NCBI GenBank assembly: GCA_016748015.1
Contig: JAAOMT010000514.1
Span: 1-27,255, forward strand
Origin: Geosiphon pyriformis
Lineage: Eukaryota > Glomeromycota > Glomeromycetes > Archaeosporales > Geosiphonaceae
DNA length: 27,255 nucleotides
Direction: 5' to 3'
Shown here: piece by piece, positions 2,629-27,255 of the stretch
Numbering within the stretch: the stretch's first letter is position 1
Layout of the letters: each line of letters begins with the position of its first letter
The notes under the pieces: model-generated
Database searches by the model: none
What the model was told of the DNA's origin: nothing
The model's input: only the letters and a program-made list of their open reading frames with translations
Position numbers and translations under genes: made by a program

Positions 2629-3692
2629 TGAAATGACTAGCACAATCTTCTAATCTTAATCTTATTGAATATTGACTAATCACAATATTCACATGCAATA
2701 TTTTACCAATAAAATGGGATTGACAGAAAAAACTGCTGATAACTTATATTGTCTAATTTGCATTTAATTCAGCACATAATAAATTTTAATTTTAATTAAC
2801 ATGTTAAATATGGTATCAATAAATCATTTTAAAAAAATACTAGATAATTAAAAAAAGATGGTAAAAAAAAAATTCAAAGCTTAGTATAAAATATTTATAA
2901 TCACAAAAAAATAAAAATCAAGTTAGATAATCATTATTTTTGCTAAACATAATTATTTGATTAGTTTCGTTCTGCTTTTTTCAAGATTATTCAACACACT
3001 CAATTCTCAAGAAGAAAGGAATTTTTATCTGAACGACAAATACTAACCATCTCACTTTACCCGAGTTTTGGTTTATTTTTCTGGTGACACTTAAAATTGC
3101 ATTAAATTGTAATAGTGAAAGCATTGATATTATATCATTGTATGTTTACTCGCTACTAATTTTTAGATAGTTTAAATATTGATAATTATTCTCTATATAA
3201 TATAGCATACCATTTATATTCGTTCTCCTAACTTAAATCTTTCCTCTACTTTTAAATTCATCTATTGTTTTCTCTCTTATTCAATTGTTTTAACTTATCG
3301 AATACTCTTTGCTCTCTTTTTTGTATCAAAACTTATCCGGTAGTTATTAATTTTATTAAAATATTATTGTAATCAGAGTAGAATTGTTTAAAATTATTTT
3401 TCCTAAACTGTAACATGGTTAGTTATCAAGTCCTTTTTGTATTGGGTTATCAATGTAAAATAGTGAGGAAAAAATCGCCATAAAAATAGGAATTTTACTA
3501 AAGGTCAGACGCAACACATATATCAATCGAGCAAAATTAAACAAAAGTAATGATCTTTAACGAATTCCATTTGTAAAATTTGTAATACTTTCGTCATAGG
3601 CATAGTGATATATAGTAAGTTGCAGAAAGAATAATGCTAGGTGTGGAGAATTGAGATGATAAATAATAAAAATAAAATTTTTGTGTCACACA
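2629..3692. other. A+T-rich spacer, no gene seen
   Basis: Stop-dense A+T-rich DNA between the inverted-repeat fragment and the diverged family member. A plausible splice acceptor (ending TCACACAG) sits at its right edge. I see no other feature. Confidence 0.4.
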
Positions 3693-4398
3693 GTTTTATA
3701 TAAATACTCAAAAAGAAACACGAATTCAAACACCATACCTTATTTACCACAATCTCAAATGTTAACAACACCAATTATTATTTTTATATTAATTTTAGAA
3801 ATATTGAATCAAATACAATTGATATGCGCATTTGATAAAAATCTATCTGAATTGGTGAAATTAATAGGAGAAAATTTTACTAATGAAATTTTTTCCTATC
3901 ATAGACGGGTACCCAGTATGAAGATAAATAATTTAGAAAAATACTCTAGAAATATATTAAGTGTAAGTTAATATATTCTTAATTGAATAATTTATTATAA
4001 TTATATTAAATTAACTTATTTAATTTATATATATATAGAAAAAAGGAAGAGATTTTAAGTTCGCAATTTTAGAAGAAATAAAAGGAGTAAACAAAAATAA
4101 ATTAAGATTATATTGTGAAAAAAATTATTAATGGGTTTGTTAGTATTAAATTATATTTAAGCATAAAAAAAACTTATTTCTAATAAATATTTTACGTTTC
4201 TAAAGTTATAACTCAGTTGATTTATTTCCAAGACCTTCAAGAAGAAGAATTGGAAAAAGAAAATTTATCATAAATCGTATCGTTTCTTTGTTCAAGTTTT
4301 ATGAAACACCATTTAGAATCTTGAAATTTGACTGGATAAAAGTGCATACCCCGTTAGCTGATTCTAAAATTGTATCAGTTGATATTAAAGGTAGTTAG
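3693..4398 (+). pseudogene. Diverged partial member of the RLYCEK/RKIGERK family
   Basis: Three open blocks line up with the middle of the decayed gene at 495-2407. Block 1 (about 3693-3962) contains LICAFDKNLSELVKLIGENF, matching IVCASGETIEELSSKIGEEL, and ends at a GTAAGT donor in phase 0. Block 2 (4039-4131) starts after TATATATAG, also phase 0, and contains NKLRLYCEKNY, matching DERFRLYCEKV. Block 3 (about 4217-4390) contains RRIGKRKF, SLFKFYE and LKFDWIK, matching RKIGERKH, SLFKYYE and LEFDWIE, and stops with TAG at 4396-4398. The ATG at 3759 precedes a hydrophobic stretch that resembles a signal peptide but aligns with an internal part of the relative, so it may not be a real start. No homeodomain-like part and no WHMEV or LYALSMLPDG part was found, and the intron between blocks 2 and 3 is uncertain. 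It is probably a decayed partial copy, though each block is open. Confidence 0.55.
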
Positions 4399-8265: not shown

Positions 8266-8355
8266 AATATATCAAATATCATGCTTTCGGTAAAAAATTA
8301 TTATAATTCACGTGACTGAGGTTGAAAATTAAAATGAATTACTTTTTCAATTATT

Positions 8356-9801
8356 TTGCCAAATGTGTTCTTTATAATTTTGTTCTTTCTGTTCTTGAAT
8401 TTAATACCTGTTCTTCGTTCCCAAACAATAAATATACCTATTAAAATCCAAGAAAAGGTGTTGTTTAATGAGTATTTAGTAAAAGAACAATCCTACAATA
8501 AAACTCAACTATTATCTTCTTTTAAACAAAATCAATTTGTTAATGAATCAATTCAAAAAAGAAATCCACAAATTTTTCTTAATAGACCAGCCGCTGACCT
8601 TTATAATCAGTTAGTTGCAATAAAAGGAGATAGCGTAGATGTAACGTTTGTTAAAAAGACAGTGGAAGATATAGATATTTTGCAGGTATTGGATTCTGCG
8701 GCAAAATTTTCATGGATGGTATCATGTCAACAAGTTTTAAATAACAGAAAAAACTATTTGGTTGGTAAAAGACAAAAAAAGTTTGGGGTTAGTAAATAAT
8801 AATCCTTTCTTGAAGTTCATTATTAATTCTTAAAAAAAACCCCCATTTAATTTTATTTAATAAATCAATATTTTTTTTAAAACAGCAATATTTTCAGAAA
8901 AAACGATTGCTTTTAATACTCCAGAGTATGATTTTGATTATTTCACATTAGTTTCAAGCAATCGTAGATGAGGTACCATTTCTTACCCTCACGTAGAATA
9001 TGGTTTGGTGACCGAAGTTTTTTATCAATGTTGGGAAACCTGTAAAACTTGGTTCTGGGAGAAATTGAGAATTTTTGAAGAGAAAAACAATTTAAAAGAT
9101 CAATTGAACCAATATACATTTACAGGTTTTGGAATTGGAGCTGGTAAATAAAAATTTATATTCATTGAAAAACTATTGTGGAAAGAAAATTCTAAAATTT
9201 ACAATTTTGTGGTATTTGCTGCACTTGAATATAAAAGGGAATATATAAAAGCATCAATAACTCTTATTACATTCGGACAACCGAGAATTGGAAATAATCA
9301 ATTCATCTATTATATCGAACTCTTGGTGAAACTTTGGAGAGTAACTTATTGTGACGACTGGGTCCCTAATTTCCAATTGAAGATATTGATCATAAAAAAA
9401 AGAGGCTTAGTAATAAAGCTTTTAGATCTCCTATATAGACATTTTAGAAAAGAATTCTGTTTAGAACCTTCATGCGATTGTGCAAACCCAAAAATTTATT
9501 TATGTTATCACACGGTGACTTTAGATGAGAATGAGGTAATTTTCTTTGTTCTTTGTTCTTTGTGCTTTCTGCTTTCTGCTTTTTTTTTGAGTTTCACAAA
9601 AAAATCAAATTTATCAATATGATTAAAAAATATTATCAAGAGTTGCAATGGAAGAAATCATCCTTATAAAACAACATATCATACAAGTGGCTGGGAAGAT
9701 TCAATGAAATATTATAAACACATGCTGATAATCAGCATCTAGGTCCATATTTAGGGCATACAATGTTTCAAGATTGTTTTACAACAAAAGTACCTTTGTG
9801 A
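8356..9801 (+). pseudogene. Class 3 lipase-like pseudogene A (GFGIG, QPRIGN)
   Basis: All four exons of the family can be traced. Exon 1 is about 8356-8764 (hydrophobic leader IILFFLFLNLIPVL). Exon 2 is 8898-9143 and ends TFTGFGIGA at a phase 1 donor. Exon 3 runs to 9535 with ITFGQPRIGN, the Asp region VTYCDDWVP and a CDCANP cysteine pair. Exon 4 is 9641-9801 with DNQHLGPY around the expected His. Class 3 lipases are alpha/beta hydrolases that cleave ester bonds using Ser-Asp-His; here the elbow reads GFGIG, so the serine is absent, while Asp and His are present. Breaks: TTG stands where D has ATG (before CCAAAT); TGA at 8969-8971; the exon 3 acceptor expected from D is TTTTG instead of TTTAG, and the only nearby AG would make a 42-nt intron; a frameshift near 9720. 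Exon 1-2 and 2-3 phases match locus D. I judge it dead. Confidence 0.85.
9540..9590. repeat. TTCTTTG/GCTTTCT pyrimidine repeat in an intron
   Basis: Tandem TTCTTTG units then GCTTTCT units and a T run, inside the last intron of pseudogene A. It is a simple polypyrimidine repeat. Confidence 0.7.
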
Positions 9802-10853: not shown

Positions 10854-11223
10854 ATGATCCTCATGGAATTAACATTTCTGATTCTTTTCTTTATTTTACC
10901 CTTCTTTTTATCTCGTCGACCCCTATTGGGATCAGGTTCGAAATTTATACAAATCTCTTTAATAAGAAATCACACAATACTTGATCATCCTATAAATCTT
11001 CAGCAAACTTTGCTATTTCCAAAAATTAAGACGCAAGATTTGGAAGTTTTCAAAACAGATAGCATCAAAGAAAAAAATAAATTAGAAGAAAGATATACTG
11101 AGCATTCTTTTTTTGTTAAAAGTCAAGTCAAAAATAATGAACTTTTAAAAATGCTTTCTAAAAAAGCAGACTTGGCATGGAAAGCACACTGCTATTTAGC
11201 CGAAAAACGTTTTCAAGAAAAAA
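10854..11223 (+). CDS. Orphan first exon of a lipase-like gene (locus B), partial
   Basis: This exon starts at ATG 10854, chosen because it directly precedes a strong signal-peptide-like segment (MILMELTFLILFFILPFF, residues 1-18). An upstream open stretch has no ATG. It ends at GTAAGT (11224) in phase 1, the same phase as exon 1 of loci A and D. Near the end, KKADLAWKAHC matches EKAELARKAFC of locus D, which places it in the lipase-like family. Exon 1 lies before the catalytic domain, so function cannot be read from this piece. No GFGIG or QPRIGN exon is found in the 2.3 kb before the assembly gap. The locus is therefore truncated, or its remaining exons were lost or misplaced. The exon itself is open and undamaged. 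The family link rests on a short motif, leader and splice phase, so it is less certain than for A, C and D. Confidence 0.55.
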
Positions 11224-13104
11224 GTAAGTAATTAAAATGAAATTTTCAAGTGATAGAATTTCAAGTTCTAGTACTAATACAACTAATTATTATAAGTTAT
11301 TAACTTATGTATTTTAGTACTTAATGTATACTTAAGTAGAAGGTGTATTCTATATTGATAAGAAGTATATTTTGTGAATTGTAATTTAAGAAGATTTATT
11401 CGAAATATATTTTTCAGAATCATTACAAATGTAAACATTATAATATTAGTTGTTAAGTTTTAGATCTTTTATTAATTTTTACATCTGGATATTTCTATTT
11501 ATATTATTAGAATACAATTCTTTGAATTATATTAAGTAAAAATATTTAAGCATAAATCAATAGAAAATGCAAATAATAGAGAATTACAAATCAACAACTT
11601 ATATTAGCCTTCTTAAAATTATAAACTTGATAAATTTTTAATTAATTAAAAATTGCAATTGTTGAAAATTAAATTATTCTAATCCACATTTAACTTTGAA
11701 TCCAAAAGTCTTTATCTTCTCAAAAACGCGTATGTAAATAAATGCTAATAAGAGCAAACCAATTTTTTAGATAATTATATAAAGCGATTTCTGATTTGAT
11801 TTATTTGTCTTGTGATCAATAATAATTTTAATATGACCTTTTTCAACTGGAATTGTAAAAAATATTTGATCTTGAAATGCTTTCAATACTTTTTTTTATT
11901 GTTAAGTTTGATAGATTTGTAACCAGACACAAAAGTTCAATTAGGTCAACAAATTACCACCATTAGATATTTTAGTTTGATAACAATGTTAGAAATTTGT
12001 ATTAGAAAACAAATAATAAACTTTCTTTGCCTGCATAAATGCTTTTTTTCTTAGGAGAATTCAAAAAAAAATGAATAAATGTATGAAAAACTCAAAAATA
12101 TCTACCTTTTTTAAATTTTTACGAATTCTCTTAATGACTTCATTATTATACAAAATTATTATCAATAAAATAATTTTTATACTGTTGATTAAATATGCTT
12201 TCAAAAACATTTATTGTAATAATTCTATTATCTAGCTTTACATAAGAATTTTTTGCAGAAATATTTTGCTTCAGTTTTACTGATTTTTAAATAAAATCTT
12301 ATTATTTCTGTCTCTGTAAATTTCAATCTTTAATTATATTTTAGACTTAATGAATTGTAAAATAGTGTTTAAAATGTCAATAAAATTGTTAATATTTTTA
12401 GTTAAAAGAAAATCTATCATTGTGATAATTATGTTTAATTAATAAAAATAATGAAATATTATTTTTCCAACAAAGTCAATCACACCATCTTAGCTTATAA
12501 TTATTATTAAAATTTTCCTAAATTTTTAACTTTTAAAGATATAATAAAACAGAAGCTCTTAATTTATTAGCTTAATAAATCTATAATATTTTATTTTTAA
12601 ATGTTAAACAAAGATTTGTAATTCAATTAGCTACAAAAATCCTCTCTTTAATTTTAGAAATTTTATTTCAGATTGATTTTTATTTTTATAATACTTAAAT
12701 TTAGAGCCATTTAAAAGAATCTTGAGCGGTTTAATAAATATTATATTTCTTAGCGATAATTTTGTAACCAAATAATTTTCTGAAGTGAAAAGTTTTTTCA
12801 TTGTGAAATATTTAAAAGCAAATAATTAAACCTAATCCGAAATAGAAGATTGGGTTATTGGCTTTCCAAATTATTAAAAAGTTGATTCTATATTCAATTG
12901 ATCAAAAATATTATTAAAAGAGCTAAATATTCAAGGAAGTAGGTAAAAAAGTATAAAATCTTTTTTATAATGTTAATTGACTATTTAAACAACCAATATT
13001 TTCGCATTAATGGTTGAATATTTTTGAAAAACCATTTTCATTTTGATGATATATTCAAGATAACCTTGAACCAATTATAAATAATAAACAATAATATTAA
13101 TAAT
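11224..13104. other. A+T-rich gene-poor tract
   Basis: I looked here for exons 2-4 of locus B and found none. Stops are dense on both strands, and no repeat or RNA gene is evident. Confidence 0.5.
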
Positions 13105-13582
13105 ATTTTAATTTAAAAAAAATTAGTATTTGATATTAAATTTAACTGCTTTTAATAATTAATAAAAAAATAATCTAAATTGTTAAAACATTAACAAATT
13201 TGTTTTTATTAAGATTTAATAATCATGGCTTAATTACTATCTAAAAATTAGAAAAAAACTAAGTGCTCTAAAATTAAATATAATTTACATATTTCTATAT
13301 ATAATCAACTACTTGAATCAATTTAGACTATACTATATTAATATAACAGAAGTAAACTTAACTAAAGTCAACATTTTTTGAAATATATCAAATAATCTAA
13401 TACTACAAAAAACTAACCTGACTAGCTATATAGCTGTTTTTAAGAAATTAGTTTTAATACTATTAAGCTTATATATCTAAAAGAATATTAAATTAGAAAA
13501 TATTTCATTATTAATATCAATTAAAAAATCTGAATTATTAAACATATTAACATTATATATACAGCACTTTTTTTTTAGTAAA
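13105..13582 (+). repeat. Direct repeat copy 1, left of assembly gap
   Basis: These 478 bp recur at 13603-14080 with no difference that I can see by eye, and the copy runs right up to the N block. This is the pattern of two contig ends that overlap but were joined by a spacer. Confidence 0.9.
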
Positions 13583-13602: not shown

Positions 13603-14080
13603 ATTTTAATTTAAAAAAAATTAGTATTTGATATTAAATTTAACTGCTTTTAATAATTAATAAAAAAATAATCTAAATTGTTAAAACATTAACAAATTTG
13701 TTTTTATTAAGATTTAATAATCATGGCTTAATTACTATCTAAAAATTAGAAAAAAACTAAGTGCTCTAAAATTAAATATAATTTACATATTTCTATATAT
13801 AATCAACTACTTGAATCAATTTAGACTATACTATATTAATATAACAGAAGTAAACTTAACTAAAGTCAACATTTTTTGAAATATATCAAATAATCTAATA
13901 CTACAAAAAACTAACCTGACTAGCTATATAGCTGTTTTTAAGAAATTAGTTTTAATACTATTAAGCTTATATATCTAAAAGAATATTAAATTAGAAAATA
14001 TTTCATTATTAATATCAATTAAAAAATCTGAATTATTAAACATATTAACATTATATATACAGCACTTTTTTTTTAGTAAA
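13603..14080 (+). repeat. Direct repeat copy 2, right of assembly gap
   Basis: Starts at the first base after the N block and matches 13105-13582 at a constant offset of 498. Matching ends at 14080, exactly where the left copy meets the Ns. Confidence 0.9.
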
Positions 14081-21289: not shown

Positions 21290-22303
21290 CTTACCTCCAT
21301 GAGCATCTGCATTACAACTCTTCAAAGTAGAATTTTTTTTTTCAATATTCAATTAACTTTTCAGATAAAAATAATTTTCAAATTCTACTGGTGATTCTAG
21401 CCTATATTCTTCTGTCGTCAAAGATTCTGGACATTCATATACATTTGGCCGTGGTTCACTTCGACGACCTGAACAATCACATGGCGCTCTATCACCTGGG
21501 CATGATGTAAAAACTCATTGCCAAAATGCAATTTTGGATATTTTGGAACAAAGTTATTGTAGTTTGTCATGCGAAATATTTTTCCTGGGAGTTTTGTGTT
21601 GACATAGTGAGAAAACATCAAATTTCCAATCCGTGGTTGCTTGTATGTATAAACTTCAATATCTAGCCTCCATTGTTTGACCCATCTAAATCGAGATTGA
21701 AAATATAATCTAGCAAAAATTGCATATCCCTTATAAAAATTCTAATGAGTTTTTTCAGAAAACTCAAATGTTCCATCATGCAAAATGTTAATGTCAATTC
21801 TATTACTCCCACCAAAACTCCATGCTTAGTAAATACAAGTCTCTTATATTTTCAATGTTTGAGAACCTCATCAACCCTTTTTTTCGATTCCAAACGTCCA
21901 GCAGAGGACTCTCGGTAAAATTCTTCATTAACCATTGAACCTTTAATCTTTTTGTCATATGGAATTTGTGATCTTTCATTTTGAGCAAACTCAATTGTTA
22001 AAAATTTTCCTTTAAAGAAACTTGAAATTCTTTGTCTAGCCTAACCTTTTTGATTTTCACTGATATTCGAAAATTGTTTCAGTTTTAAAGGAGATTTTCC
22101 TTAATTTAAGTTTGATTAGGATGCTTTAGGAACTTACCATATATGTTTGGGGGTTAATTTGTAATTTTCTTCTAAGCAAGAAGCTCTTTGTGAAACATAA
22201 GCATATAATTCAAATTTGTCTTACGAGGATCAGTTTTGGATAACCGTATTTTGTCATGAACGAACAATATTTGTTGGTGATGATGAGGAATATCATTGCT
22301 CAT
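21290..22303 (-). pseudogene. Class 3 lipase-like pseudogene C (QPRIGN, former GHGVG)
   Basis: Minus-strand copy of the same family. Exon 1 remains run from ATG 22303-22301 to the donor GTAAGT (22137-22132), with ELYAYVSQRAS like the ELYDH region of D but one frame off the ATG. The next exon begins about 22059 (KKVRLDKEFQVSLKEN) and aligns with exon 2 of D through KGSMVNEEFYRES to RLVFTKHGVLVGVI, apparently a decayed GHGVGGVI elbow. The third part has YTYKQPRIGN at about 21625 and FRMTNYNNFVPKYP, where the expected Asp is Asn. A frameshift near 21485 leads to PCDCSGRRSEPRPNVYEC, which matches the cysteine pair of A. A last piece near 21325-21290 reads SCNADAHG before GTAAGAAC and resembles the His exon. 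There are stops after FQVSLKENF and VDEVLKH, and further frameshifts in the elbow region. This is a dead copy. Confidence 0.8.
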
Positions 22304-25289: not shown

Positions 25290-26691
25290 TTAACAAGTCA
25301 TCGTTACTTCATAATAAGGCCCGAAATGATCATTATCCCCCTGTTGACCGCTAGAATTTACACACATCTTTTTATAAAGCAAAATTATATTTAGATGATT
25401 TTTAATAAAAGTTATGCTTATTTCACTTAAAGGTTTTTCAGTTACCTGACTTTCAAGTGAGGTATCGCTATTACAATAGAAGGATTCCCGATCCACGCCA
25501 TTGTTCCAGATCTCAGTTCCATCGTGGATATACTCTCCAGTTGGCAGTTGGGGAATTTTATCATGCCCAAAAGTTGAACGCCAATGTTCCAGCCGATCAT
25601 CAGCCCCTTCTGCGAATTTCTCATTCCCAATTCTAGGCTGGCCGAATGTAAACACCAAAGGTTTCGGAATATTTGGCAAATTATTTTGTGCATAATCTAG
25701 AGCTGCCAATTCAGCATACACTAATAAATTCCATTATAATCGATTGGGAATCCAAAAAAAAAAAAATTTCTTATTCCTAAAGAATGAACAATCTTTGAAG
25801 CCAGACACAATTTTATTTTAGCTAAAAGACAGACTTACCTCCACCGATCCCAAAACCAACAAATGTTACTAAATTTGAATCTTTTTTAGCTTGCTCTATT
25901 ATTGAATTTATATCGGCTAAATTTTCTGAATGCCAATTTTTATATTCATCTCGAAATTTTTGTAAAATCCTTGCACCAGATATTGGATTTTCCTCAGGAA
26001 ATTGGCTCATGTGATCAGCAGATTGAAGGTCCTTCAGCAAGGTTTCTTCATTGCCAGCAAAAGAAATATTTATTTCATCTTCAGATTTTTCAGCAAAATC
26101 TGAAAACAGAATTCAAGCCATGACTTTTTTTTATTGAAATTCAAGTTGATGCTTCTTAATTGTTGTTAATCTTTTTTTAAAAAACTTACGGTAAATCTTA
26201 TCAGATTGATCATTCTTACTTTTTCGAGTACAAAAGGCTTTTCTAGCCAGTTCAGCTTTTTCTTTCATCCAAGATTGATCTCTAGGACTAACTATGTGAT
26301 CATATAAAGATTCTGTCACTTTATCTTCTTGCACTAGAAATTCATTTATGGAGAACCAGGAAAAACCCTTTGATCCAAAGTTTAATGGATCAGAACTCGT
26401 TTCAAAAGATACCGCTGCATCTGTTTTGAATGGGTCATTGAAATTAAAGTTCAAAATGGAACTTTCATCATTCAAATTAAGATAATCATTGGTCGAAGCC
26501 AAAATTGGTTCCCCAAAAATATTTTGCTCAGAATCCAAAGTTATTGGTGAGGCTGTGACCACCATTATATTGGGATTTGAGATCGATGACAATTGCCATA
26601 TTATTCTTATTAAAACTATGAGAAAAATTTTGTATGCTAAGTTCGAAATTTTATTTGGCATGGTGAGAATATCTATGCTAGAATTTTGCAT
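25290..26691 (-). CDS. Secreted class 3 lipase-like protein D, nucleophile Ser replaced by Gly
   Basis: The only apparently intact gene. Exons 26691-26190, 26099-25839, 25720-25446 and 25367-25290; introns of 90, 118 and 78 nt, all GT-AG. The sum is 1116 nt, or 371 aa. The ATG at 26661 (MPNK, context CACCATG) may be the real start, because it aligns with the start region of A. A hydrophobic segment at residues 18-35 suggests secretion or membrane anchoring. The catalytic domain follows: NPISGARILQKFRDEY, then VTFVGFGIGGVYAELAALD (elbow, residues 249-254), TFGQPRIGN (279-287), Asp308 in GHDKIPQLP, IHDGTEIW, and His360 in DNDHFGPY; Cys at 337, 348 and 371. Class 3 lipases use Ser-Asp-His to hydrolyse acylglycerols; residue 251 is Gly (GGG codon), so normal hydrolysis is not expected although Asp and His remain. 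The third intron is in frame, so reading through it is also possible. It may be a lipid-binding pseudoenzyme; that is inference. Confidence 0.85.
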
Positions 26692-27023: not shown

Positions 27024-27255
27024 ATGACAGAACAACTTAATGTGAAAAGAAAAACCTCACCTGTTACAGTCGCCTCCGAAATTAACGCCCGATTTTGGTG
27101 TAACAAAGTACTCGAAAATTTACCATGATCTGGACGCCCACCAGCTCTCAATAACCAAACAAAAAGTGCTCTCTTACGAAAAGTTAAAAATGAACGACGT
27201 AAACCACTACAAGAGATTGTTGATGATTTGAAGCTTAATTGCAGTTTAACAACAG
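27024..27255 (+). pseudogene. Tc1/mariner-like transposase N-terminus, degenerate and cut by window end
   Basis: From ATG 27024 the frame reads through KRKTSPVTVASEI to VLENLP, then TGA at 27126-27128, and continues in the same frame as SGRPPALNNQTKSALLRKVK and RRKPLQEIVDDLKL to the window edge. The pattern VLxxLPxSGRPPxL followed by a basic helical segment is what Tc1-type transposases have between their two helix-turn-helix DNA-binding units, where an Arg normally stands before SGRP. A CGA to TGA change would explain the stop. The DDE catalytic domain lies beyond the window. G+C is higher here than in neighbouring DNA, which fits a more recent arrival. Confidence 0.7.

Follow-up and report, generated by a model that had tools for sequence, protein, structure and literature searches.

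A class 3 lipase homologue with glycine at the catalytic serine position and its place in a large fungal gene family

Neuroligins, the yolk proteins of Drosophila and GID1 are non-catalytic proteins of the alpha/beta-hydrolase type, some of which have lost the catalytic serine (Ser), and to our knowledge such proteins form small families in lineages other than the present one. Among the closest described systems for the gene analysed here is the family of Rhizomucor miehei lipase (PF01764; structures 4tgl and 1lgy, and feruloyl esterase A, 2hl6). The gene, called D, lies on the minus strand of a 27,255-nucleotide stretch of DNA (the window) on the contig labelled C232 of an AT-rich genome assembly (124.7 Mb, 406 contigs). 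Its product is like the R. miehei family over residues 200-351, both by profile and by sequence, and it carries glycine (Gly) at the position of the catalytic Ser. Large sets of lipase genes are on record in host-dependent fungi. In the sections of the sources drawn on here, the Lipase_3 counts of Entomophthorales are 348 for Entomophthora muscae, 132 for Entomophaga maimaiga and 190 for Zoophthora radicans (PMC11105155), and the mean lipase number of Glomeromycotina is 189 per genome (PMC12574304).

The glycine elbow of gene D

The clean spliced model of D described in an earlier note on this DNA was reproduced, with 371 amino acids in four exons (minus strand, 26691-25290), GT-AG introns and no internal stop (Table 1). 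Lipase_3 (PF01764) was the only Pfam match of the product (E value 2.4e-17, 63.6 bits against a curated cut-off of 22, residues 200-315), which identifies D as a class 3 lipase homologue, and NCBIfam gave no match for D. The top match in PDB by sequence was R. miehei lipase 4tgl (E value 3.9e-11). In this alignment, GFGIGG of D lay on GHSLGG and FGHD308 on NERD203, with Gly251 at the position of Ser144 and Asp308 at that of the catalytic Asp203. The catalytic His was assigned as His360 by motif only, exon 4 lying outside the PDB alignment; the family motif HxGPYFG is one residue longer than what we take to be the R. miehei motif. The usual contexts of Asp308 and His360 noted earlier were therefore found again, the first by alignment and the second by motif. 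Position 184 of D is Asn, and the matching oxyanion residue of R. miehei lipase is outside the aligned fragment. GxSxG is absent from D, which thus lacks the nucleophile Ser of a class 3 lipase enzyme, and the family alignment likewise placed Gly, not a conserved Ser, at the nucleophile column of D. Its nearest relative, L003, is 40-42% identical and also carries Gly (GFGSGG).

If the gene model were wrong, another exon 2/3 junction might give a Ser elbow. The introns of D are predicted, and exon 1 has an alternative donor after 26220, in phase, that leads to a 361-amino-acid product; a second possible start codon lies at 26661. However, the elbow is wholly within exon 2, which means that Ser cannot be restored by joining exons 2 and 3 differently, and [GA]xSxG is absent from every minus-strand frame of 25290-26691. 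Moreover, only 7 of the 112 family members with Gly described below have a [GA]xSxG-like string nearby in some frame, and in 4 of these 7 the Ser stands two residues after the Gly. The alternative junction that the earlier note had allowed for was thereby ruled out, and we consider an error of the model hardly credible.

These results make it near certain that D is a pseudo-lipase, a homologue of R. miehei-type class 3 lipases with Gly251 at the catalytic Ser position, as judged from the predicted protein. The term is used here for an intact, selected gene that has lost an essential catalytic residue. The model of D is open, and selection was seen in the Gly members of the family, not in D alone; D has no close paralogue and hence no ratio of nonsynonymous to synonymous substitution (dN/dS) of its own.

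The nucleophile position across the family

The genome was searched with the Lipase_3 profile, which gave at least 163 exon matches (150 of 750 candidates scored), and with D as the query, which gave 112 exon matches, the exons of D included. When both searches were pooled and matches merged within 700 bases, at least 223 distinct Lipase_3 loci were obtained besides D; one listed match (C96:319250, with the same scores as C96:297852) stands outside the 223. From these, 180 loci were cut out, taken in blocks and not randomly (122 of 142 found by Pfam and 58 of 81 found with D). The exon 2/3 junction was modelled in 174 of the 180 on the assumption that, as in D, a phase-1 intron directly follows the elbow, so that members without this intron were missed. 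The assumption is supported by the Lipase_3 matches in the genome, which often start or stop at model position 74-77. The six unmodelled loci were L026 and L040 (both GHSLGA), L090, which looks degraded, L123, L139 and L164. L040 reads on without an intron past GHSLGA, while the printed frame of L026 ends at it, and the addition of these two would raise the Ser count to 43 of 176.

The nucleophile column of the 174 modelled loci held Gly in 112, Ser in 41, Ala in 6, Asn in 5, Cys, Arg and Asp in 3 each and Thr in 1, which leaves 21 loci with neither Gly nor Ser. The proportions by source were 76 Gly and 28 Ser among the 117 Pfam-found loci, and 36 Gly and 13 Ser among the 57 found with D. The call from the motif agreed with the aligned column in all 174 rows, and a modelling rule blind to the nucleophile returned the same call in 173, the exception using a GC donor. 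The family-wide change suspected from the copies in the window thus extends far beyond them.

Some elbows were of other kinds. In L016, L059, L092 and L093 a Gly elbow is followed by Ser two residues on (for example GFGYSG and GHGVSG), that is, a shifted Ser. Cys stands at the nucleophile position in L015, L088 and L023 (GFCYSG, GHCVGG), of which L015 and L088 are a close pair, and a Cys nucleophile is possible in these three.

In a tree of 117 loci, clades with Ser only (L041 with L042, and L024 with seven relatives) branched first, adjoining R. miehei lipase, with support of 81 to 98 in the Shimodaira-Hasegawa-like approximate likelihood-ratio test (SH-aLRT). Above them lay a large radiation that is mainly Gly with scattered Ser. 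In the tree of 174 loci the nucleophile column must have switched between Ser and non-Ser at least 22 times, and 4 of these switches were forced by well-supported (starred) branches. The Ser codon was AGY in 40 of 41 rows, the Gly codons were GGT in 46, GGA in 43, GGG in 14 and GGC in 9, and AGY and GGY are one step apart. A Ser-bearing member, L102, was nested in a supported Gly/Ala clade and shared 64-68% identity with L103 and L115, its sisters with Gly. Ser may have returned there, and the three loci form a natural Ser/Gly trio.

The other two catalytic positions are kept in most rows. Asp308 was Asp in all 173 rows that have the column (111 Gly, 41 Ser and 21 other). Exon 4, recognised without requiring His, was present in 153 of the 174 rows. 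Its His was kept in 88 of the 96 rows with Gly, 34 of the 37 with Ser and 13 of the 20 with other residues. There was no difference between Gly and Ser rows (Fisher p = 1.0), while retention was higher in Gly rows (88 of 95, with the doubtful row L130 dropped) than with the other replacements (p = 0.003, relatedness uncorrected). Codon changes were counted on a maximum-likelihood tree from which the nucleophile column had been excluded. Within the Gly rows, Asp308 underwent at least 21 codon changes with no change of amino acid and Gly251 at least 41 silent ones, whereas the median over 154 columns was 0.46 amino-acid changes per Gly row. The His column showed 18 codon changes in 96 Gly rows, 6 of them of amino acid. 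Gly281 was as constant as Asp308, and Arg302, Glu324 and Pro283 had one amino-acid change each.

Since silent changes accumulated at Asp308 and Gly251 without any change of residue, both are held by selection, which bears out the view of the earlier note that the change is not simple decay. The loss of former lipases in an AT-rich genome would account for the damage in two other copies in the window (A and C, Table 1) and for the 6 of 180 loci that resisted modelling, of which at least L090 is degraded, although L026 and L040 were missed for other reasons. Against this, D has 371 open codons, exons 2 and 3 are open in 164 of the 174 modelled loci, and the decayed copy C has lost the Asp, unlike the modelled copies. 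Decay is thus contradicted for the family and we regard it as very unlikely. These results show, at the sequence level, that the nucleophile Ser was replaced many times, mostly by Gly, while selection preserved Asp, His and the core of the fold.

Pairwise rates were compared as well. Among the 117 loci, 13 close non-Ser pairs (dS below 0.5), which are not independent, gave dN/dS of 0.48-1.19, with 11 of the 13 below 1. Basal Ser pairs gave 0.14-0.43, but at a different dS from the close non-Ser pairs. A faster evolution of the Gly class was considered and dropped, as the values overlapped at matched dS of about 1.2-1.5 (0.24-0.34 for Gly and 0.26-0.30 for Ser).

A putative binding role and its alternatives

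Our overall explanation, to which we give a probability of about one half, is that D belongs to an expanded pseudo-lipase family of targeted proteins that bind lipids or other ligands without hydrolysing them. The fold would bind a lipid or other acyl ligand under its lid, so that the pocket is reused, and a glycine elbow would offer the ligand space as well as an unoccupied backbone. The Asp-His pair could hydrogen-bond the head group of the ligand or clamp the two loops that carry Asp and His, while the N-terminal segment would export the protein. The copies may have diverged into proteins that capture, carry or recognise lipids in a fungus unable to make its own fatty acids, with many variants selected for in a lipid-dependent life style. 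The ligand-binding role of the family, taken on its own, is tentative and in our estimate falls slightly short of even odds; the lipid-carrier, decoy or receptor-like role put forward in the earlier note is likewise hypothetical.

The earlier note had also suggested a different nucleophile. No Ser, Thr, Cys or Asp column fixed in the Gly members that could replace the lost Ser was found among 154 well-filled columns of exons 2 and 3, exons 1 and 4 being outside the scan, and this suggestion was not borne out. With neither Ser nor a substitute fixed in its place, D is not expected to form an acyl-enzyme; judged by the known mechanism, it is very probably not an ordinary lipase and very probably carries out no ordinary lipolysis. 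Two polar positions were tried and rejected. Thr304 came closest to fixation in Gly members only (109 of 112 Gly rows against 31 of 41 Ser rows), and Asp at position 213 was found in 63 of 111 Gly and 9 of 39 Ser rows; each difference rests on 4 phylogenetically independent pairs (for Thr304, on supported branches), a number at which the sign test cannot reach significance.

An enzyme that works without Ser is another reading, in which the Asp-His pair would act as a general base on water or on the substrate and catalysis would proceed without an acyl-enzyme. The fixed Asp, the equal conservation of His in Gly and Ser rows, its better retention with Gly than with other replacements and the Gly251 held through its silent changes would all suit such an enzyme. 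However, an oxyanion-type residue (Thr, Ser, Asp or Asn) stands at position 184 in 18 of 103 Gly rows as opposed to 21 of 35 Ser rows, a difference with 3 independent pairs only. The smaller share in Gly rows, which is not phylogenetically independent, appears to argue against esterase chemistry. In addition, His is replaced by Asn in both classes, and the elbow has gained no newly fixed polar residue. We therefore hold a Ser-less enzyme to be doubtful. The same low weight is given to a bolder form, in which the Gly members would be a new kind of Ser-less hydrolase-fold protein whose Asp-His pair and glycine elbow perform chemistry or a gated hand-over of lipid without an acyl-enzyme, well over 100 of them having evolved in an obligately lipid-dependent fungus to take host lipid.

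A stronger competitor of the binding role, though still unlikely in our view, is that the lipase fold serves as a stable scaffold for diversifying proteins of symbiosis or host interaction, effector-like or recognition-like, whose variable surface does the work while the active site is kept for stability. One fold is present in over 200 copies in the genome, and the majority of the modelled copies lack Ser. The median column has 0.46 changes per Gly row while a small core is fixed, the close non-Ser pairs have dN/dS of 0.48-1.19, and Arg302 and Glu324 are nearly as fixed as the Asp. On the other hand, a scaffold alone does not need His and Asp to be retained at the level of the Ser members, and the Gly and Ser pairs are similar in dN/dS at matched dS.

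The N-terminus of D has a hydrophobicity of 2.14 (15-amino-acid window), and twenty Gly loci, chosen by hand, were extended upstream for comparison. A strongly hydrophobic stretch was found within the first 60 residues of the longest frame in 19 of the 20, compared with 106 of 1000 shuffled proteins; under a stricter rule, which had been applied first, the figures were 10 of 20 and 5 of 400 shuffled DNAs. By hydropathy, this suggests that the segment of D directs entry into the secretory pathway, with the product either released or anchored. Several members have a long charged lead before the hydrophobic stretch, which makes a signal anchor no less possible than a cleaved signal peptide. The pseudoenzyme-like nature of the protein suggested in the earlier note is supported, and so is its hydrophobic N-terminus.

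The genome context was also considered. It includes fungal chitin synthases, while an rDNA pattern based on a mycorrhiza primer site gave no match. For the helical domain of type I fatty acid synthase (FAS; PF08354) there was no match in the genome, with a control matched in one genome; FAS_I_H also had none, but no control was matched, so this result says little. Thiamine-phosphate synthase (PF02581) and trypsin (PF00089) had no match in the genome either, the trypsin control being matched in 11 of 14 genomes. HMG_box gave at least 118 matches, several of them clustered on contigs C283, C207 and C77, and large HMG-box numbers are known from Rhizophagus. In the parts of the sources drawn on here, loss of cytosolic FAS is on record for arbuscular mycorrhizal fungi, Malassezia, Pneumocystis and Microsporidia (PMC11426481), and FAS and thiamine-phosphate synthase were lost together in Glomeromycotina and a Mucoromycotina fine-root endophyte (PMC12574304). 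The missing FAS, trypsin and thiamine-phosphate synthase matches, the 118 HMG-box matches, the low G+C content and the 124.7 Mb therefore fit a fatty-acid auxotroph of the arbuscular mycorrhizal type best.

Several points weigh against this overall explanation. The inner part of the tree is weak, with 28 of 173 inner branches starred. Of the 174 modelled copies, 41 retain Ser and may be real lipases, and the dN/dS above 1 in 2 of the 13 close non-Ser pairs means that some copies may be free of constraint. The near-invariance of Arg302 and Glu324, which are not catalytic, implies that the constancy of Asp308 may be structural. Where His was lost, its usual replacement was Asn (13 of 18 rows), in keeping with hydrogen bonding but also with a purely structural role. 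Ligand binding itself is a prediction, and the auxotrophy rests on missing matches in a gapped assembly, with one of the two FAS searches lacking a working control.

Domain-based annotation would count these loci as lipases. If the nucleophile is missing from most of them, tallies of expanded lipases can be misleading for host-dependent fungi, and a familiar name conceals a large family of unassigned role. If the host genome is that of an arbuscular mycorrhizal fungus, as the missing FAS and thiamine genes suggest, a large and varied set of proteins that have the lipid fold but no hydrolase chemistry is relevant to how such fungi take up plant lipids. Furthermore, elbows with Ser, Gly, Ala, Cys, Asn and Asp occur naturally in combination with an unchanged Asp, and this series could serve to test the function of the Asp-His pair once Ser is gone.

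Other features of the window and comparison with known systems

Table 1. Coordinates of gene D and of related copies in the window.
Feature	Position	Strand	Content	Basis
D exon 1	26190..26691	-	start codon, hydrophobic N-terminal segment (about residues 18-36), 167-amino-acid N-terminal region	spliced model, hydropathy
D exon 2	25839..26099	-	oxyanion-loop equivalent FAGN184, lid region, nucleophile elbow GFGIGG	
Gly251 codon GGG	25849..25851	-	R. miehei Ser144 position	PDB and family alignment, coordinates counted from exon model
Phase-1 intron directly 3' of elbow	25721..25838	-		exon model; Lipase_3 match breaks
D exon 3	25446..25720	-	FGQPRIGN, Arg302, Asp308, Glu324	
Asp308 codon	25560..25562	-	equals R. 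miehei Asp203	coordinates counted from exon model
D third intron	25368..25445	-	78 nucleotides, stop-free; retention would add 26 amino acids	
D exon 4	25290..25367	-	His360 in NDH360FGPYY, stop codon	
Copy A	8338..9790	+	elbow GFGIGA; Asp (CDDWVP) and HLGPYLG motif kept	read by eye
Copy B	10854..11231	+	exon-1-like piece with hydrophobic N-terminus	read by eye
Copy C	21300..22000	-	frame-shifted, decayed; Asp column is Asn (TNYNNFVP)	read by eye

The three other copies in the window are listed in Table 1. The GFGIG elbow reported earlier for copy A was confirmed. By eye, this copy lacks both an in-frame Met ahead of its hydrophobic N-terminus and a clear acceptor for exon 3, and it looks like a member of a GFGxGA subgroup (compare L055, L060, L073 and L078). 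No catalytic exons were recognised downstream of copy B, read by eye to 11420.

The remaining features of the window are of a different nature. A Tc1/mariner-like transposase frame, recognised by eye, begins at the window edge (27024-27255, plus strand). An inverted repeat (1344-1559 and 2413-2628) has arms of 216 nucleotides that are 99% complementary and 853 nucleotides apart, with open frames within and around the arms; it resembles a gene fragment or mobile element present twice in opposite orientations. A direct repeat (13105-13582 and 13603-14080) flanks a gap of 20 N, with 300 nucleotides at 100% computed and the longer extent read by eye, and is most likely an assembly artefact in which two overlapping contig ends were left unmerged. 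A short open frame at 3663-3971 (plus strand) shows a hydrophobic stretch after its Met (MLTTPIIIFILILEILNQIQLICA) and may represent one more exon 1 fragment, again of a secreted protein. Rfam gave no match at gathering scores anywhere in the window.

No description of a Gly-elbow class 3 lipase family was found among the titles and openings of abstracts listed in searches of the open-access PMC literature. The R. miehei lipase family shares with D the context of the elbow, GQPRxGN, the Asp and, by motif, the His, and the Ser paralogues of this genome are its nearest neighbours on the tree. Unlike that family, D and 112 of its 174 modelled paralogues have Gly at the nucleophile position, and the copies run to hundreds. 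The Entomophthorales are alike in showing a very large Lipase_3 expansion in a host-specialised fungus. The sections of the report on them that were drawn on here treat the proteins as lipases, do not mention Ser loss and include trypsin among the secreted enzymes of E. muscae (PMC11105155). The present genome, with no PF00089 match, does not fit the Entomophthorales type with trypsins. EDS1, PAD4 and SAG101, which were weak PDB matches of D, have a hydrolase or lipase fold that is reused for binding or signalling, as is proposed here for D. In contrast to EDS1- and neuroligin-type proteins, Gly dominates a giant paralogous family in this genome and the Asp-His pair is kept. As far as the predicted proteins indicate, the pseudo-lipase family is unusual in its size, in favouring one replacement above all others and in keeping the Asp-His pair intact.
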